From: Flavobacteria bacterium RIFCSPLOWO2_12_FULL_35_11
Lineage (GTDB): Bacteria > Bacteroidota > Bacteroidia > Flavobacteriales > Flavobacteriaceae
Reading direction: 5' to 3'
NCBI GenBank assembly: GCA_001800975.1
Contig: MGWK01000092.1
Location: forward strand, 8,034 to 41,970
DNA length: 33,937 nucleotides
Both the position numbers and the translations under genes were made by a program. The notes under the pieces were generated by a model. The model was not told the origin of the DNA. It saw only the letters and a program-made list of their open reading frames with translations, and searched no databases. Shown one piece after another: positions 18,284 through 25,008 of this stretch. Numbering within the stretch: position 1 is the stretch's first letter; each line of letters begins with the position of its first letter.

Positions 18284-18991
18284 TTATAGCACTTCCATAA
18301 AAATCAACATGTAATAACTGCCGGTGATTATAAACACAACACCTGCAATAGTGCGCATTGCTTTTTCAATTTTAGTGATTCTTTTGTAAAAAGTTCCTAC
18401 ACTATTGGCGGTAAAAGCCAATAAATAGGTAAAAAGCAATACTGGCAATCCTGTTCCGAAGGCAAAAATTAAGGGTAAATACAAGCCGTTAATGCTAGAA
18501 ATGCTCATTGGGATTAACATGCCAAAATACAATGCGCCGCTGTAAGGACAAAAGGCCAATGCAAAAACGGCTCCTATTAAAAATGAGCCCAATAAACCCT
18601 TATCTTGAAATTTTTCAGACAACTTATCGCTAAAATTCATTTTGTTGAAGAAATTCAACCGAATAACATTCAGCATTATTAAGCCAATAACAATAAGCAA
18701 AGGACCTAAATACTTTTCACCATTCTGGTTAAAAAATCGAGCGATATGAAATTTATTGGCTCCAAAAAATAAAATTAATCCTATGGTTGTATAAGTGAAT
18801 GCCCTGCCAAGAGAATATAAAATTCCGCTTAAAAAAACCTTTTTTTTGCTTGCAATATTTTTAGAAATAAATGCCGTAGCGGTAATGTTGGTCGCAAGCG
18901 GACAAGGACTAATGGCAGTCATAAGTCCCAGCACAAATGCAGACAAAACAGGAATATTGTTATTTTCTAAAAGCGATTGCAAAAAATCCAT
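18284..18991 (-). CDS. ArsG-like CcdA/DsbD-fold permease
   Basis: A 235-residue membrane protein with about six helices and the CcdA/DsbD-type twin motifs: AISPCPLATN in TM1 (Cys near 30) and ALAFCPYSGALYFG in TM4. It belongs to the group annotated as the ArsG family, linked to export of aromatic trivalent arsenicals in the Shewanella arsEFG system. Related proteins elsewhere only shuttle electrons across the membrane, so the substrate is uncertain. Its ATG directly abuts the TAG stop of the ArsF-like gene, which implies translational coupling. It is the last gene of arsenic unit 2. Confidence 0.75.
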   Translation of the reverse strand: MDFLQSLLENNNIPVLSAFVLGLMTAISPCPLATNITATAFISKNIASKKKVFLSGILYSLGRAFTYTTIGLILFFGANKFHIARFFNQNGEKYLGPLLIVIGLIMLNVIRLNFFNKMNFSDKLSEKFQDKGLLGSFLIGAVFALAFCPYSGALYFGMLIPMSISSINGLYLPLIFAFGTGLPVLLFTYLLAFTANSVGTFYKRITKIEKAMRTIAGVVFIITGSYYMLIFMEVL

Positions 18992-19429
18992 CTATATATT
19001 TTTAAGCTGGACGGCTATTGTTTGCTTTAATTCTTCTGAAAATGCTTTTTGATCGTTGCCATTCATAAAAGCGAATTCAGTTAAATCAATTTGTTTTGCT
19101 TTTCCATTTTTTACAACATTCAAAAATAGGGAAGTACCTGATGCCTGAAATTTTTCAGCCAATTTTTCATTTTCTTCTTTATCGACATTTATAATTTTAA
19201 AGGTGATTTTGCCGCTTTTTAATTCATTGGCAAAATAGGTGTCCAAAGTGTATTTTGTGTTAGCTTCTATGGCTTTACAGGTTTTGCATCTGTTTGTGGA
19301 GTGAAAATCAATCACTTCAATTACATTTTTAGTTGCTTGTTTGTCAGCTGTTTTGTTTTGTGCATTTCCTATGCAGGAAAATAAAAACAGACTCAAAATA
19401 ATTGTTGATAAAATAGGAAGTTTTTTCAT
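18992..19429 (-). CDS. ArsF-like thioredoxin-fold lipoprotein
   Basis: A 145-residue protein with a signal sequence ending LFSC (Cys19, probable lipoprotein), then a thioredoxin-like domain with a CxxC pair, Cys48 and Cys51, in STNRCKTCKAIE. It resembles the group annotated as ArsF, which in arsEFG is proposed to help reduce nitro groups of aromatic arsenicals. A periplasmic thiol carrier working with the adjacent CcdA-like permease is an equally reasonable reading. It lies 18 bp after the permease gene and abuts the ArsG-like gene. Confidence 0.75.
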   Translation of the reverse strand: MKKLPILSTIILSLFLFSCIGNAQNKTADKQATKNVIEVIDFHSTNRCKTCKAIEANTKYTLDTYFANELKSGKITFKIINVDKEENEKLAEKFQASGTSLFLNVVKNGKAKQIDLTEFAFMNGNDQKAFSEELKQTIAVQLKNI

Positions 19430-19447
19430 TTTTTATGATTTAAATGG

Positions 19448-20425
19448 TTATAAAATTAGGTTAAATAAATATCCGGAGATGATAATGCATATGGTTACCA
19501 CTCCAAAGAAAATTCCGATTAATTTAAGGGTCATTACTTTTTTAAGCAGCGTAGCTTCAGGTATAGAAAGGCCAACAGTTGCCATCATAAAAGCAATGGC
19601 TGTTCCCATTGGGATTCCTTTTGCAACAAAAACCTGAATAACAGGAACAATACCGGCAGCATTGGCATACATTGGAACTGCCAAAATAACCGCCAAAGGA
19701 ACAGTCCACCAAGCGCCGCTTCCCAAATATTTGGCGAAGAAATTTTCAGGAACATAACCGTGCATTGCGGCGCCAATGCCAACACCAATAATAATATATA
19801 ACAAAACGCCTTTTACAATATCCCAAGCACCTTTGGTGATTTCTGGCAAACGCTGCTTGAATGTCCTTTTTTCTTCTTCATATTCATCACCTGCTTTTTG
19901 TGCATTTGCCAAAATATTTTTCACCCAGTCGGTCAAAAGCGGTTCTAAATGGAATTTTCCCAACAACCAACCGCCGAAAGTCCCCAATAAAATACCTGAA
20001 ATGGCATAAATTAAGGTAACTTTTAATCCAAACATGCTTAAAAACATCGCTATGGCGACTTCATTTACCAAAGGGGAAGTAATCAGAAAAGAAAAAGTGA
20101 CCCCTAAAGGAATTCCTCCGTGAACAAAACCTATAAAAAGGGGAACTGATGAGCAGGAGCAAAAAGGGGTAATTGCCCCAAAAATGGAGGCAAAGAAATA
20201 TTCCAGACCGTACAGTTTTTTGCGGTTGAGGTAGTTTTTTAGTTTCTCAATTGGAAAGTAAGTGTTTACAATTCCCATTAAAAAAACAATCACAAATAAC
20301 AGGATTAAAATCTTGATGGTGTCGTAAACAAAAAAATTGAGCGATTTGCCTAAATGCGTTGCTGCTCCAATATTAAGAACGGAGTAAATTAACCAATCTG
20401 CCAATTTTTGAACCCAATCAAACAT
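19448..20425 (-). CDS. PF03773-type permease (ArsP_1/DUF318 family)
   Basis: A 325-residue protein with about eight membrane helices. The family core is visible as FGAITPFCSCSSVPLFIGF with a Cys-Ser-Cys-Ser motif (about 88-91) and GIPLGVTFSFLITSPLVNEVA. A second-half counterpart is VPMYANAAGIVPVIQVFVAKGIPMGTAIAFMMA. Relatives include ArsP, which exports trivalent organoarsenicals, and SO_0444-type metal efflux permeases. Two hydrophilic loops, one Glu-rich (DEYEEEKRTFKQR), separate the halves. It sits 12 bp after the thioredoxin-like gene in arsenic unit 2. Arsenical export is inferred from context. Confidence 0.82.
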   Translation of the reverse strand: MFDWVQKLADWLIYSVLNIGAATHLGKSLNFFVYDTIKILILLFVIVFLMGIVNTYFPIEKLKNYLNRKKLYGLEYFFASIFGAITPFCSCSSVPLFIGFVHGGIPLGVTFSFLITSPLVNEVAIAMFLSMFGLKVTLIYAISGILLGTFGGWLLGKFHLEPLLTDWVKNILANAQKAGDEYEEEKRTFKQRLPEITKGAWDIVKGVLLYIIIGVGIGAAMHGYVPENFFAKYLGSGAWWTVPLAVILAVPMYANAAGIVPVIQVFVAKGIPMGTAIAFMMATVGLSIPEATLLKKVMTLKLIGIFFGVVTICIIISGYLFNLIL

Positions 20426-20437
20426 AAGACAGTTTTT

Positions 20438-20737
20438 TTAGCAACATTTATTGTCAGAACAACCGCAATCAGTGTCAGATGAATTCTTCGTTTGCAAATT
20501 CTCCATTAAAAGCGAAGTGATTTCTGCTTTTGAAGGAACGCGTCCTTTAATTTTAATTTCATTGTTTATCACCACTGCAGGCGTAGACATAACGTTATAT
20601 TTCATAATTTCCATAATATCTTCCACCTTTTCAATAGTGGCATCAATATTATTTTCAGTGACCACTTCTTGAACCACAGCGGTAGTTTGTTTGCATTTCG
20701 GACAACCGGTTCCCAGGATTTTTATGTTTATGCTCAT
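20438..20737 (-). CDS. Thioredoxin/glutaredoxin-like redox protein with Cys tail
   Basis: The ATG at 20737 (MSINIKILGTGCPKC) gives 99 residues. A longer frame to 20860 reads through repeat DNA (MQRKARPPFRRKRPP) and is not real. The fold is that of the small MTH895/TM0996 group, redox-active disulfide protein 2, with active-site Cys12 and Cys15 (GCPKC) and the cis-Pro in STPAVVINN (Pro53). Residues 91-99 are an unusual Cys-rich tail with Cys91, 93, 98 and 99, ending in Cys-Cys. It probably supplies reducing power or binds arsenite within unit 2. A 320-bp leader with a dispersed repeat separates it from arsR2. Confidence 0.85.
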   Translation of the reverse strand: MSINIKILGTGCPKCKQTTAVVQEVVTENNIDATIEKVEDIMEIMKYNVMSTPAVVINNEIKIKGRVPSKAEITSLLMENLQTKNSSDTDCGCSDNKCC

Positions 20738-20809
20738 TTTTTTAAGTTTTAATATGTTGTTGTAATTAAGTAATTTATCGGTTAAAAAATTATATGTTGG
20801 ACCTGCCTG

Positions 20810-20920
20810 CCTTTTCGGTGGGCGTTTCCGCCGAAAAGGCGGTCGGGCTTTCCGCTGCAATCTTTTTAAATTCGCCGAAAAGGCAAATTAAAAAAGTATT
20901 TCCGCTTCAATCCCTAACGC
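20810..20920 (+). repeat. Dispersed intergenic repeat, family 1, copy B
   Basis: 20841-20920 (GGTCGGGCTTTCCG ... CCCTAACGC) matches the copy at 3132-3206. The copy also carries a hairpin: CCTTTTCGG (20810-20818) pairs with CCGAAAAGG (20831-20839), and GCCGAAAAGGC recurs at 20874-20884. It fills the 320-bp gap between arsR2 and the thioredoxin-like gene. Confidence 0.75.
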
Positions 20921-21057
20921 AGCTTGAATCATTCCATATGAACTATTTCTAGTTAACCATTTGTTTATTCTTTTTTCAACTTCCTACTTTAGGCATTCTA
21001 GGCACTCCAAACTTTAGGCACTTATTCGTACATTAATTTTAAAATATGACAATAAGA

Positions 21058-21363
21058 TTATTCAAAGAAACCTTGAAACAATGCTTTTGCTGTTTTCCAA
21101 TTTTCTTTATTGATACAGTATTTTATTTTTGGCGGATTTACTTCACCCTGAATCAAGCCTGCATTTTTTAATTCTTTTAAATGTTGTGAAATGGTCGATT
21201 GCGCCAAAGGAAATATATCAACCAAATCGCCCGTAAAACAGCACGATTGATGTTCTAAATGCTTTAAAATTGCAATTCGCGTTGGATGGCCCAATGCTTT
21301 GGCAAAACGCGCCAATTGTTTGGATTCATCCTTAAAACCGATATTTTCTGTATTTTTTTTCAT
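21058..21363 (-). CDS. arsR: ArsR/SmtB-family metalloregulator (arsR2)
   Basis: A 101-residue winged-helix repressor. It has the ArsR start LARFAKALGHPTRIAILKHLE, a Cys pair at the metal-sensing site (SCCFTGDLV, Cys41-Cys42), and recognition helix LAQSTISQHLKELKNAGLIQG. It would release DNA on binding As(III). A 6-4-6 dyad operator lies 5 bp before the start codon, over the promoter -7 element, so the gene is probably autoregulated. It heads arsenic unit 2 and follows ACR3. Unlike arsR1 the metal site is CC, not CxC, and there is no Cys tail. Confidence 0.9.
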   Translation of the reverse strand: MKKNTENIGFKDESKQLARFAKALGHPTRIAILKHLEHQSCCFTGDLVDIFPLAQSTISQHLKELKNAGLIQGEVNPPKIKYCINKENWKTAKALFQGFFE

Positions 21364-21365
21364 TT

Positions 21366-21387
21366 CCTATCGTAAAAGTACGATTGG
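21366..21387 (-). promoter_or_regulatory. ArsR operator over arsR2 promoter
   Basis: The dyad ATCGTA-AAAG-TACGAT at 21369-21384 is perfect, extended by CC/GG after a T-T mismatch. On the minus strand TACTTTTA (21380-21373) inside it resembles the -7 element TAnnTTTG. No -33 TTG was found. Confidence 0.7.
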
Positions 21388-21435
21388 AAATTAGGTTAAA
21401 AGATGATGGATATCATTTTATCTAATTTATTTATT

Positions 21436-22464
21436 TTAGATAAAATATTTTTTCTTCAGCCAAAAAGAAACCCTCACCAATAAAATTAATGCAGGCACTT
21501 CAACCAAAGGTCCAACAACACCAGCAAATGCTTGTCCGGAGTTCAATCCGAACACCGCAATCGCCACGGCAATGGCCAATTCAAAATTATTTCCTGCAGC
21601 CGTAAAAGCAACCGCTGCCGTTTTATCGTAAGTGGCGCCCATTGCTTTGGTGACAAAGAATCCAATGAGGAACATGATGGTAAAATAAATAAGCAACGGA
21701 ACAGCGATTATGAGCACATCCATAGGGATTTCAACAATCAATTCGCCTTTTAGGGAAAACATGACCACAATGGTAAACAACAAAGCTATTAAGGTAAGCG
21801 GGGAAATGGTTGGAATGAATTTTTTGTTGTACCAATCTTCGCCTTTCAGTTTTACCAAAATCAAACGACTTAAAATTCCCAAAACAAATGGAATTCCCAA
21901 ATAAATAGCCACACTTTCAGCTATTGTTGCAATAGAAATATCAACAATGGCACCTTCAAAACCAAAATAGGGCGGAAGCACGGTTATAAAAAGCCAGGCA
22001 TAAAAACTATAGGCAAATACCTGAAAAATGCTGTTTAGGGCCACCAAACCGGCGCCATATTCACTGCTTCCTTCGGCCAAATCGTTCCAAACCAATACCA
22101 TCGCAATGCAACGCGCCAAGCCAATCAAAATTAATCCCACCATATATTCCGGGTAATCCTGCAAAAAGGTAATGGCCAGCACAAACATCAAAACCGGACC
22201 AATAATCCAGTTTAAAATCAATGAAATAGATAGAATTTTTACGTTGGTAAACACTTTTGGCAACAAAGCATAATTCACTTTCGCCAGCGGCGGATACATC
22301 ATTACAATTAATCCAATGGCAATGGGAATGTTGGTGGTTCCGCTGCTAAAAGAATCTATTAATGTTGGAAATGAGGGAACAAAATAACCTATTGCCACAC
22401 CAATGGCCATGGCAATAAATATCCATAAGGTTAGGTAACTATCGAGGAAGCTTAGTTTTTTCAT
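21436..22464 (-). CDS. arsB: ACR3-family arsenite efflux transporter
   Basis: A 342-residue protein with ten predicted membrane helices. Diagnostic ACR3 residues are Cys119 in [13 protein letters not shown] (TM4) and Glu295 in [15 protein letters not shown] (TM9), both needed for arsenite-thiol exchange in studied members. It exports arsenite from the cytoplasm using the proton gradient. It is the last gene of unit 1 (arsR1, arsM, DUF6428, reductase, ACR3), with a 136-bp gap upstream holding a dispersed repeat. Often also called acr3. Confidence 0.93.
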
Positions 22465-22479
22465 AATTATTGTTGAATC

Positions 22480-22615
22480 GTTTATTCGTTTAATCGTGTA
22501 ATTGTTTATTCGATGAATTCTGTAACAAATTATTTAGTCTCTTTTCTTTTTTCTCTATTCTTTAATTTTTTAGTGGCCAATAGGCTTATTGGCTAATTGT
22601 CTAATTAATTTTTGA
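22480..22615 (-). repeat. Dispersed intergenic repeat, family 2, copy B
   Basis: Read on the minus strand it carries the words AATTAGCCAAT, GAATAGAGAAAAAAG, AAAGAGACTAAA and ACACGATTAAACG in the same order as 12796-12900. It fills the gap between the arsenate reductase and ACR3. Confidence 0.55.
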
Positions 22616-23212
22616 GAAAACATACAACATTTCAGTTGCAATTTGGTTGCTGCGTTCTTCATATTTTTCAGCCTGTTGCGGCGTGTTGTCAAAAGCTTTT
22701 GGATCGTCATATTTTACCGGAATGCGTTTTTCTGCTCCAGGAATAAACGGACAATTGGCATCAGCTTGTGAACATGTCATTATAGCGGCAAATTCACTTT
22801 TCGGATTGAAAGGATGGTCAAAAGTTTTAGAAAACCCTACAATCGGAGGTTCATTTTCGGCGTATTTAATGGCGTAAACTGGATTTTTACCTTCTGATAA
22901 AGTTTGGATTTCAAAACCTGCGCGTTCCAACGTTTTTGCGGCCATGGGAAATAATGCCGTAGCTTCCGTCCCGCCCGAATAACAATAAACATTTTTCAGA
23001 TGGTAAAAATGCGCGGCTGCCTGCGCCCAAACTTGCGACAAATGACTTCTGCGTGAATTGTGCGTGCAAATAAAATTCAGATTTGCATTTTTGTTTTCTG
23101 TCACTTTTGTTTGAATGTAATCTATCAATGGCTGCAAAGTTTGCTTGCGTTCATTGGAAATTTCGTCCAATTTTAAGGAAGCAATGATGTTTTCGATTTG
23201 TTTAATCAGCAT
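22601..23212 (-). CDS. arsC: Low-molecular-weight phosphatase-type arsenate reductase
   Basis: A 203-residue protein. After an about 45-residue helical N-terminal part, the phosphatase-like loop FICTHNSRRS holds the CX5R motif (Cys49, Arg55). Two more Cys in the MTCSQADANCPFIPG segment (Cys147, Cys154) match the redox pair of thioredoxin-coupled ArsC enzymes of the S. aureus pI258 kind. The Asp pair in KYDDP may include the general acid. It would reduce arsenate to arsenite for ACR3 or ArsM. It lies 19 bp after the DUF6428-like gene, so the two are probably co-transcribed. The longer N-terminal region is a known variant in Bacteroidota. Confidence 0.88.
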   Translation of the reverse strand: MLIKQIENIIASLKLDEISNERKQTLQPLIDYIQTKVTENKNANLNFICTHNSRRSHLSQVWAQAAAHFYHLKNVYCYSGGTEATALFPMAAKTLERAGFEIQTLSEGKNPVYAIKYAENEPPIVGFSKTFDHPFNPKSEFAAIMTCSQADANCPFIPGAEKRIPVKYDDPKAFDNTPQQAEKYEERSNQIATEMLYVFSKIN

Positions 23213-23231
23213 TGTGTCTTGGTATTTTATT

Positions 23232-23705
23232 TTAACAACATCCAGAACTTGGCGTACAACAGGCCGATTGTTTTGTTTGTAAATCGGACAATTTTACTTT
23301 AGATTTTTCTTGCGGAACGCCACACGAGTCCTGTGCCAAACAAGTTGTATTTTTTGCAGTCAGCAAAAAGTTTGTCCCGTTAAAATCGAGTCCGTATTTT
23401 CCTATTGTTTCCCCTTGATATTCCACTTCAATTTCTAAATTTCCAAGGTTTAGCAATTTGTCGGACAGCTCAATAATGTTTATTAATTTTTCAGGATGAA
23501 GGCGATGGTCGTAATCGTTGGCTTCCCACAATTGAAAATTGGCAACCACTTCATTTCTAAGTGTTCCGCCACAATCGATAAAATGCTTTGTTACCTTGCC
23601 AACTTCTGTTACATGGAAATGGTTTGGCACTAAATTGCCATTTGGCAACTGAAAAGCAATGGTTTTTAAATTGCTTAAATGATTTTTTATTTCTTCAATG
23701 GTCAT
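23232..23705 (-). CDS. DUF6428-like protein with Cys-rich tail
   Basis: A 157-residue soluble protein without a known activity. It starts TIEEIKNHLSNLKTIAFQLPNG and has a conserved-looking NHFHVTEVGKVTKHFIDCGG segment (28-47), with His residues that could bind metal. The tail ends in Cys149-Cys150 and Cys156-Cys157. I recognise it as the DUF6428 family, usually found next to arsenic genes in Bacteroidota. That naming is from memory and not checked. The location between arsM and the arsenate reductase points to a role in arsenic handling, perhaps as an arsenite carrier. Confidence 0.7.
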   Translation of the reverse strand: MTIEEIKNHLSNLKTIAFQLPNGNLVPNHFHVTEVGKVTKHFIDCGGTLRNEVVANFQLWEANDYDHRLHPEKLINIIELSDKLLNLGNLEIEVEYQGETIGKYGLDFNGTNFLLTAKNTTCLAQDSCGVPQEKSKVKLSDLQTKQSACCTPSSGCC

Positions 23706-23795
23706 TGTGTAAATTTTTAAAAGTTTATTGTGAATACTTTAATTTATTGATGGTTTTCCTTACTTAGTTTCGTTTAATTTGGCTATATTAATTGA

Positions 23796-24632
23796 TTAAC
23801 AACAGCCATTGCCGGGTTTGCAACAATCGGGTTTACGCGCAAATACGGTGATACTGAAAATTCCTGTATTGGAATTTTTGAACAACGCAAGCGCTTCTTC
23901 ATTTAGATAGCTTTTTAAAATATTATCGGGAAGCAAAATAGATTTTTCTTTTTGAATTTTTATATCAATAAAACCGCTTTCAGCAATTAAATTTAAGTAG
24001 GTTTCTTTTTGAATGGCACCTGATACACATCCCGCGTACATTTCTGCTTCTTCGGTAAGTGCAGGAGGTAAATCTCCAACCAATACCACATCTGAAATGC
24101 TAAAATGTCCGCCAGGTTTTAGTGCCCTAAGTATTTCTTGGAAGACCTCTTTTTTATTGGGAACTAAATTAAGCACACAATTGCTGACAACCACATCAAC
24201 AACATTTGAAGTGATAGGCAGTTTTTCTATATCACCCAATCTGAATTCCACATTGTTAAATCCTCTTTTCTCCGCATTTTCTCGCGCTTTTTCAACCATA
24301 ATTGGGGTAAAATCAACACCAATCACTTTTCCCTTTTCACCAGTTTGCGCTCGGGCAACAAAGCAATCGTTTCCGGCGCCGCTTCCTAAATCCAGTACGG
24401 TATCGCCTTCATTAATTAACGCATATGCCGTTGGAAGTCCGCAGCCCAAACCTAAATCGGCATCCGGATTGTACCCTTCTATGGATTCATAACTATCGCT
24501 CATAATATTACACACTTCTGTTGAGCATCCTCCTGAGCCGCAGCATGAAGCTCTGTTTTCATTTTGGTCTTGTAAGGCAATTTCACTGTATTTTTGCTTT
24601 ACCAAATCTTTTAATTCTTTGTCTGTTTTCAT
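23796..24632 (-). CDS. arsM: Arsenite S-adenosylmethionine methyltransferase
   Basis: A 278-residue enzyme that methylates As(III) using S-adenosylmethionine. The SAM motif is VLDLGSGAGNDCFVAR (79-94). Cys residues needed for As(III) binding are seen in family positions: Cys64 (GLGCGLP), Cys152 (SNCVLNLVP) and Cys202 (YAGCVSGA). A further N-terminal Cys cluster lies at 30, 31, 36 and 41 (SCCGSGGCSTEVC). The C-terminal tail carries Cys270, 271, 277 and 278 and ends in Cys-Cys. It follows arsR1 by 43 bp. Its products are methylated, partly volatile arsenicals, some of which could be exported by unit 2. Confidence 0.95.
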   Translation of the reverse strand: MKTDKELKDLVKQKYSEIALQDQNENRASCCGSGGCSTEVCNIMSDSYESIEGYNPDADLGLGCGLPTAYALINEGDTVLDLGSGAGNDCFVARAQTGEKGKVIGVDFTPIMVEKARENAEKRGFNNVEFRLGDIEKLPITSNVVDVVVSNCVLNLVPNKKEVFQEILRALKPGGHFSISDVVLVGDLPPALTEEAEMYAGCVSGAIQKETYLNLIAESGFIDIKIQKEKSILLPDNILKSYLNEEALALFKNSNTGIFSITVFARKPDCCKPGNGCC

Positions 24633-24675
24633 CTTAAATTGTTTTTTTGTAATAAATGATTATTGAATTAATTTT

Positions 24676-25008
24676 TTAACAACATTGGCTTTTAGGATTG
24701 ATATCCTGATTTAAAAATGTCGTAAAAAGTTCCTTGGAAGTTTCCCAAACTTCCTCATTGATGCAATAGCAAACGCTAGTGCCTTCCACATTTCCTTTGA
24801 TCAATCCCAAATTTTTAAGTTCTTTCAAGTGTTGTGAAATAGTTGGTTGCGCCAATCCGATTTCTGCAACCAAATCACCGCAAATGCAAGCATTCATTTT
24901 AAAAAGTTGTTGTAAAATGGCCACTCTGGCAGGATGCGCAAAGGCTTTTGCAATGGTTGCTATTTGATTTTGCTCTTCAGTAAATTTTTCAGATTTTGTG
25001 ATTCCCAT
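24676..25008 (-). CDS. arsR: ArsR-family arsenic-responsive repressor (arsR1)
   Basis: A 110-residue winged-helix protein: IAKAFAHPARVAILQQL, then the CxC sensing site NACICGDLV (Cys41, Cys43), recognition helix LAQPTISQHLKELKNLGLIKG and a wing SVCYCINEE with two more Cys. It ends in Cys109-Cys110, like three neighbouring proteins. It heads arsenic unit 1 and has a good promoter with an operator dyad over the -7 element, so it is very likely autoregulated. It resembles arsR2 but differs enough to sense another ligand or threshold. Confidence 0.92.
   Translation of the reverse strand: MGITKSEKFTEEQNQIATIAKAFAHPARVAILQQLFKMNACICGDLVAEIGLAQPTISQHLKELKNLGLIKGNVEGTSVCYCINEEVWETSKELFTTFLNQDINPKSQCC

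Follow-up and report, generated by a model that had tools for sequence, protein, structure and literature searches.

The question raised by an arsenic resistance (ars) island of Flavobacteria bacterium RIFCSPLOWO2_12_FULL_35_11 is why proteins of unrelated families should all end in the same two residues. The island lies in a stretch of 33,937 nucleotides (assembly GCA_001800975.1, contig MGWK01000092.1, positions 8,034 to 41,970), referred to below as the window. According to gene calls and family models, it consists of ten genes on the minus strand, coding for the repressors ArsR1 and ArsR2, the arsenite methyltransferase ArsM, a DUF6428 protein, an ArsC-like phosphatase, ACR3, an ArsE-family thioredoxin-like protein, an ArsP_1 permease, and ArsF-like and ArsG-like proteins. 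An exact Cys-Cys C-terminus is present in four of these ten products, namely, ArsR1 (...NPKSQCC), ArsM (...DCCKPGNGCC), DUF6428 (...ACCTPSSGCC), and the ArsE-like protein (...DCGCSDNKCC). Of the 36 open reading frames (ORFs) that gene calling gives for the window, these four end in this way and the remaining 32 do not. The statement of the initial annotation that four nonhomologous island proteins end exactly in Cys-Cys is thus borne out. The reading favoured here is that several unrelated arsenic proteins acquired Cys-Cys arms, either by independent origin or by transfer, and that such an arm is probably, if only by a modest measure, a portable flexible dithiol that would capture As(III) and present it to the protein that carries it.

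The distribution of these ends was examined in Bacteroidota genomes found through DUF6428, ArsE, ArsM, and ArsR1 queries, which are therefore not a random sample, and each distinct protein was counted once. Gene calling took the longest ORF, a rule that missed some overlapping ORFs (e.g., ArsE in locus L110). Families were assigned with hidden Markov models made from sequences related to the window proteins, ArsD lying outside this family set. The DUF6428 search gave matches in 66 of 247 genomes, to which the best 80 of 593 confirmed named DUF6428 loci were added. Cys-Cys is the end of 172 of the 174 distinct DUF6428 proteins, the other two ending in a single Cys; in the added best 80 of 593 loci, it is found in 80/80 DUF6428 and 73/83 ArsR proteins. 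ArsM carries the pair at the exact end in 32 and within the last five residues in 34 of 45 distinct proteins, and the corresponding figures for ArsE are 12 and 16 of the 57 caught by the simple gene caller. No such end occurs in the other 407 proteins assigned in the same clusters (122 ACR3, 185 ArsC-like, 67 ArsP, 12 ArsF, and 21 ArsG). The background rate was taken from ORFs of the fetched loci, not from whole proteomes, and amounts to 16 of 3089 distinct unassigned ORFs. For 15 of these 16, the product is an ars or mer protein or the gene directly adjoins DUF6428: eight rhodanese-like proteins (one named by Pfam, all alike by phmmer), four ArsD, one GDCCVxC protein, and two copies of a protein encoded upstream of DUF6428. 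The last is an unexplained ORF of 94 residues in an ArsM locus. Cys-Cys tails are strongly associated with arsenic loci, with one mercury-like exception. The protein found directly upstream of DUF6428 (L313:7421-7990 and L321:7412-7981) has 189 residues, ends in TCC, and is apparently membrane-bound; the L313 copy has no Pfam match.

ArsR is the one of these families that also occurs away from ars loci, and its tail follows the arsenic context. Within 1.2 kb of DUF6428, 147 of 161 ArsR proteins end in Cys-Cys and three more have the pair in the last five residues; the remaining 11 keep at least one Cys there, L028 stopping early at a CYC motif. Near other core ars genes, the end is found in 28 of 60 (and within the last five residues in two more), and in one of 27 where ArsE or ArsP is the sole recognised ars gene nearby. 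Where no recognised ars gene lies nearby, three of 21 ArsR proteins are tailed, and all three (L291, L292, and L296) adjoin ArsD; one of the other 18 (L110) belongs to the ArsE locus missed by the caller. The initial annotation had named an equal frequency of tails in homologues outside ars loci as the result that would speak against a common role, and the proposal withstands this comparison. The contrast is partly phylogenetic, as untailed ArsR proteins often belong to other subfamilies. Cys 41, 43, 80, and 82 are kept in 95-100% of the 175 ArsR proteins selected for a Cys-Cys end. Small clusters formed by a tailed ArsR, a tailed DUF6428, and an acetyltransferase-like gene (a label given by eye) occur in L046, L047, L051, L053, and L063, with no ACR3, ArsC-like, or ArsM gene within 5 kb.

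In part of the hosts, the pair closes a longer motif. The tails of DUF6428 and ArsM have a common pattern, which is C or CC, any residue, P, two residues, G or N, and CC (C-x-P-x-x-G-C-C), and in some cases the linker is nearly common as well (EKPKVNLSELQ in ArsM of L121, EKPKLKLSELQ in DUF6428 of L002). When a profile of the last 32 DUF6428 residues is run against the fetched ORFs, ArsM is matched at E 9e-8 and ArsR tails score at E 0.95 or worse. An earlier tail model (247 genomes) mixed ArsM and DUF6428 tails and was not used as a test. The test model was built from 24 DUF6428 tails alone, with no ArsM, ArsD, or zinc ribbon, and was run over 395 whole genomes at E <= 0.02. It matches 114 places: 87 DUF6428, which include its own training rows, 19 ArsM, four ArsD, one FmdB zinc ribbon, and three that are chance-like. 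A script classified 35 of them (24 DUF6428, seven ArsM, and four unassigned, the zinc ribbon among them), and 79 were classified by eye against coordinates and reads (63 DUF6428, 12 ArsM, and four ArsD). In the 27 places outside DUF6428, the best ArsM match has E 2.6e-8 and the four ArsD matches have E 2.3e-4 to 0.011. The FmdB-family protein (72 residues, L418:1341-1559) has the tail GGCCTPGSGCC and is encoded between ArsA and ArsC-like genes. Judged by sequence comparison, one C-x-P-x-x-G-C-C arm thus recurs on the unrelated folds of DUF6428, ArsM, ArsD, and the zinc ribbon. As the profile detects ArsD although no ArsD sequence went into it, the DUF6428 tail can be regarded as a putative ArsD-type C-terminal vicinal Cys arm. 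As for the gene neighbourhood of L418, an acetyltransferase-like gene comes after the zinc ribbon region. The ArsD proteins of L291 (5464-6039), L293, L294, and L296 are about 190-208 residues long and have an extension of about 80 residues between the ArsD domain and a CxPGxGCC tail.

ArsR1 and ArsE have only the terminal Cys-Cys in common with these proteins. Indeed, the final pair is the sole Cys in the last 28 residues of ArsR1, so that the description of all four window tails as Cys-rich fails for this repressor, and the longer motif is found in ArsM and DUF6428 only. The idea of a common added tail holds in that arsenic-locus tails stand on nonhomologous proteins and that DUF6428, ArsM, and ArsD have one motif; for ArsR1 and ArsE, it is reduced to the final pair.

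The pair is nearly invariant, whereas the linker before it drifts. On a tree of 50 ArsM rows, where a tail was taken as at least two Cys in the last 12 residues, three changes are needed. In the main tailed clade, the tail is kept in 33 of 33 proteins though linker length and sequence change. In L140 (967-2319), ArsM is fused to a GNAT acetyltransferase domain and the Cys tail is found at the new C-terminus. In ArsE, a Cys tail, defined as at least three Cys including Cys-Cys in the last 24 residues and not always at the exact end, is present in 34 of 84 distinct proteins. A tailed rhodanese adjoins none of these 34 and nine of the 50 tailless proteins (Fisher P 0.009, relatedness uncorrected), and the rest of the tailless ArsE comprises six beside an OsmC-like gene and 35 with neither. 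The OsmC-like gene occupies the position of the tailed rhodanese in L072, L226, L231, L233, L234, and L340. On a Sulfuricella plasmid (L395, 2156-2467 and 3975-4244), a protein of 103 residues ending in GSCCAPTAKGNSCC adjoins a tailless ArsM, and a thioredoxin-like protein ends in CCGCCGKE.

At the nucleotide level, the terminal pair is written in DUF6428 (n = 172) as TGTTGT 63, TGTTGC 47, TGCTGC 31, and TGCTGT 31 times, and in ArsR (n = 173) as TGTTGT 52, TGTTGC 44, TGCTGC 37, and TGCTGT 40 times. As TGT and TGC mix freely, selection acts on the protein. The genes of DUF6428, ArsM, and ArsR1 in the window end in TGTTGTTAA and that of the ArsE-like protein in TGTTGCTAA; the ending reported for three of the four genes was therefore read correctly, but it is a matter of codon usage and not a conserved feature.

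Structurally, the DUF6428 protein is predicted to have an ordered core and a low-confidence end, the predicted local distance difference test score (pLDDT) being about 50 from residue 121, and its C-terminal arm is accordingly modelled as disordered. ArsR1 is predicted to be well ordered save for its first and last ten residues (pLDDT about 70). Besides the terminal pair, C45 and C122 are the invariant Cys columns among 25 diverse DUF6428 sequences. We infer that the vicinal thiols of the arm would capture As(III) and offer it to the cysteines of the host itself, namely, those of the ArsM active site, the ArsR sensor cysteines, or C45 and C122 of DUF6428. By analogy, this route may resemble that by which the C-terminal pair of MerA loads Hg(II) into the active site.

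Terminal vicinal cysteines are known singly in arsenic and mercury proteins, ArsD and MerA among them. The ArsD of an enterobacterial plasmid ends in SCCGGKTSCC. For E. coli ArsD, PMC4562236 describes two vicinal pairs at the C-terminus, Cys112-113 and Cys119-120, to which a role in regulation is ascribed. The three ArsD chains of the PDB sequence set (110, 110, and 106 residues) match no further than residue 107, and the tail is outside the matched part. ArsD resembles the proteins described here in its exact Cys-Cys end with an upstream Cys or Cys pair, and the ArsD of Balneola-type genomes carries the same CTPGGGCC motif as DUF6428. It differs in being one family, whereas the arm is found here on DUF6428 as well as on a repressor, a methyltransferase, and further proteins, and in that its chaperone site is placed at the N-terminus in PMC4562236. 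In MerA, Hg(II) is bound by a C-terminal Cys pair, which folds down into a cleft and hands the metal on to the buried active site (PMC4500099), so that vicinal thiols at the C-terminus both take and deliver a metal; this concerns Hg(II) and one enzyme, and delivery has been demonstrated for MerA, whereas it is only proposed here. The ArsR of Acidithiobacillus ferrooxidans has an arsenic site at Cys95, 96, and 102 (PMC4562236), that is, with a Cys pair near the C-terminus; this site lies by the dimer interface, unlike the pair considered here, which is the very end beyond a variable linker. ArsR proteins of the window type also keep C41 and C43 at the E. coli-type position, the equivalence being one of position and not of structure. 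In the literature searched, which was open-licence only, there was no report of a portable arm spread across several families, and no paper named DUF6428.

The assignments of the window proteins rest on family models, and the features are collected in the table. ArsM scores 356 bits against NF008823 (cut-off 263) and is on this basis a predicted methylating enzyme; ArsR1 scores 68.3 bits against NF033788 (cut-off 55), from which a response to As(III) may be expected. The DUF6428 protein matches PF20001 above the gathering score with 225.9 bits, over positions 2-155 of the 155 of the profile, full length including the tail. The ArsE-like protein reaches 115.7 bits against TIGR00412 (cut-off 62). 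Its match to PF06953 covers the C-terminal half of the Pfam ArsD model and stays at 20.6 bits against a gathering score of 27; the protein is not classed as ArsD. A homologue of the ArsC-like gene is annotated as a protein-tyrosine-phosphatase.

Table: Coordinates of the ars island features in the window.
Feature	Position	Strand	Evidence
ArsR1, ArsR/SmtB repressor, 110 aa, end NPKSQCC, other Cys 41, 43, 80, 82	24676..25008	-	NF033788 above cut-off, PF01022
ArsR1 terminal Cys-Cys codons	24679..24684	-	direct read
ArsM, predicted arsenite methyltransferase, 278 aa	23796..24632	-	NF008823 above cut-off
ArsM tail DCCKPGNGCC	23799..23828	-	direct read
DUF6428 protein, 157 aa	23232..23705	-	PF20001
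DUF6428 tail ACCTPSSGCC, preceded by linker KSKVKLSDLQTKQS	23235..23264	-	Cys-Cys ends of relatives; low pLDDT from residue 121
ArsC-like phosphatase, without Cys tail	22601..23212	-	NCBIfam arsenate reductase matches far under cut-off
ACR3 arsenite efflux transporter, without Cys tail	21436..22464	-	TIGR00832 above cut-off
ArsR2, without Cys tail, end LFQGFFE	21058..21363	-	NF033788 above cut-off
ArsE-family thioredoxin-like protein, 99 aa	20438..20737	-	TIGR00412 above cut-off; PF13192; sub-threshold PF06953 (ArsD), E 5.8e-4
ArsE tail CGCSDNKCC	20441..20467	-	Cys tails in part of ArsE relatives
ArsP_1 permease, ArsF-like, and ArsG-like genes, without Cys tails	18284..20425	-	PF03773; NF040494, NF040495 above cut-off

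The initial annotation had proposed that the tails are a common hand-over tag by which As(III) passes directly among the repressor, the methyltransferase, the DUF6428 protein, and the thioredoxin-like protein. Such a relay would suit clusters in which several proteins are tailed, the same motif on different folds, and the fact that a tailed ArsE and a tailed rhodanese never adjoin each other among 84 ArsE loci. Yet tails occur without their partners, as where a tailless ArsM is encoded next to a tailed ArsR (L148, L149, L213, and L215), and the ArsR and ArsE tails lack the longer common motif, which makes the relay somewhat unlikely. Since tails are gained or lost singly, protein by protein, a fixed series of repressor, methyltransferase, and redox partner is not required. 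As the arm is found on ArsE at some loci and on the adjoining rhodanese at others, it may work between partners as well, and a hand-over between proteins, which fits this alternation, is possible. Coincidence, either by unchanged descent within clades or by copying of neighbouring gene ends without common function, could draw on the strongly clade-bound tails of ArsM and on the linkers that some ArsM and DUF6428 proteins have in common. It is highly improbable given that the pair is kept as the linker drifts while its codons vary, that ArsM and DUF6428 tails of one locus are no more alike than shuffled pairs (only four loci could be compared), and that other genomes have the motif on ArsD and on a zinc ribbon too.

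Two further explanations dispense with the delivery of arsenic. The tail might be a general sink for thiophilic metals, binding any soft metal that enters and protecting its host; the Cys-Cys end on the GDCCVxC protein of a mercury-like cluster would agree with this, but the genome-wide matches of the tail model are almost all arsenic genes, and ACR3, ArsC-like, and ArsP proteins of the same clusters are tailless, so that a sink of this kind appears unlikely. Alternatively, the pair might open and form disulfides and supply electrons to ArsM, the ArsC-like enzyme, or ArsE instead of binding arsenic. ArsM requires reduced thiols, and thioredoxin-like and rhodanese proteins are among the hosts. 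Adjacent cysteines are nevertheless an unusual redox pair compared with CxxC, and the tail is also found on a repressor, ArsD, and DUF6428, none of which is a known redox enzyme; a redox function is distinctly unlikely.

Several observations weigh against the favoured reading of a host-bound arsenite arm. The tail is absent from 13 of 45 ArsM and 50 of 84 ArsE proteins and from ArsM in the five records from outside Bacteroidota that were read, and it is therefore dispensable for those families. No ACR3, ArsC-like, or ArsM gene lies within 5 kb in 16 of 60 DUF6428 loci, in most of which a tailed ArsR is still next door. A member of the GDCCVxC (seleno)protein family (L240:324-530) ends in KSCC in a cluster identified by eye as mercury-like, and Cys-Cys ends may accordingly not be limited to arsenic. 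Lastly, the chaperone site of ArsD is formed by Cys12, 13, and 18 and not by the C-terminal pairs, as stated in PMC4562236.

A wider form of the portable-arm reading is possible, if doubtful: one short motif (C or CC, x, P, x, x, G, C, C), at times together with its linker, might be a transferable C-terminal tag that carries arsenite. Borne by no fewer than four unrelated folds (DUF6428, ArsM, ArsD, and FmdB zinc ribbon) and mimicked by ArsR, ArsE, and rhodanese, it might constitute an interchangeable network of protein-to-protein As(III) exchange in Bacteroidota. That one arm occurs on proteins as different as a repressor, a methyltransferase, members of an unstudied family, and other ars proteins hints at a general means of holding or moving a toxic metalloid. 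It also gives a first handle on DUF6428. Being short and easy to remove, and lacking by nature in some relatives, the arm lends itself to a direct test of its role.

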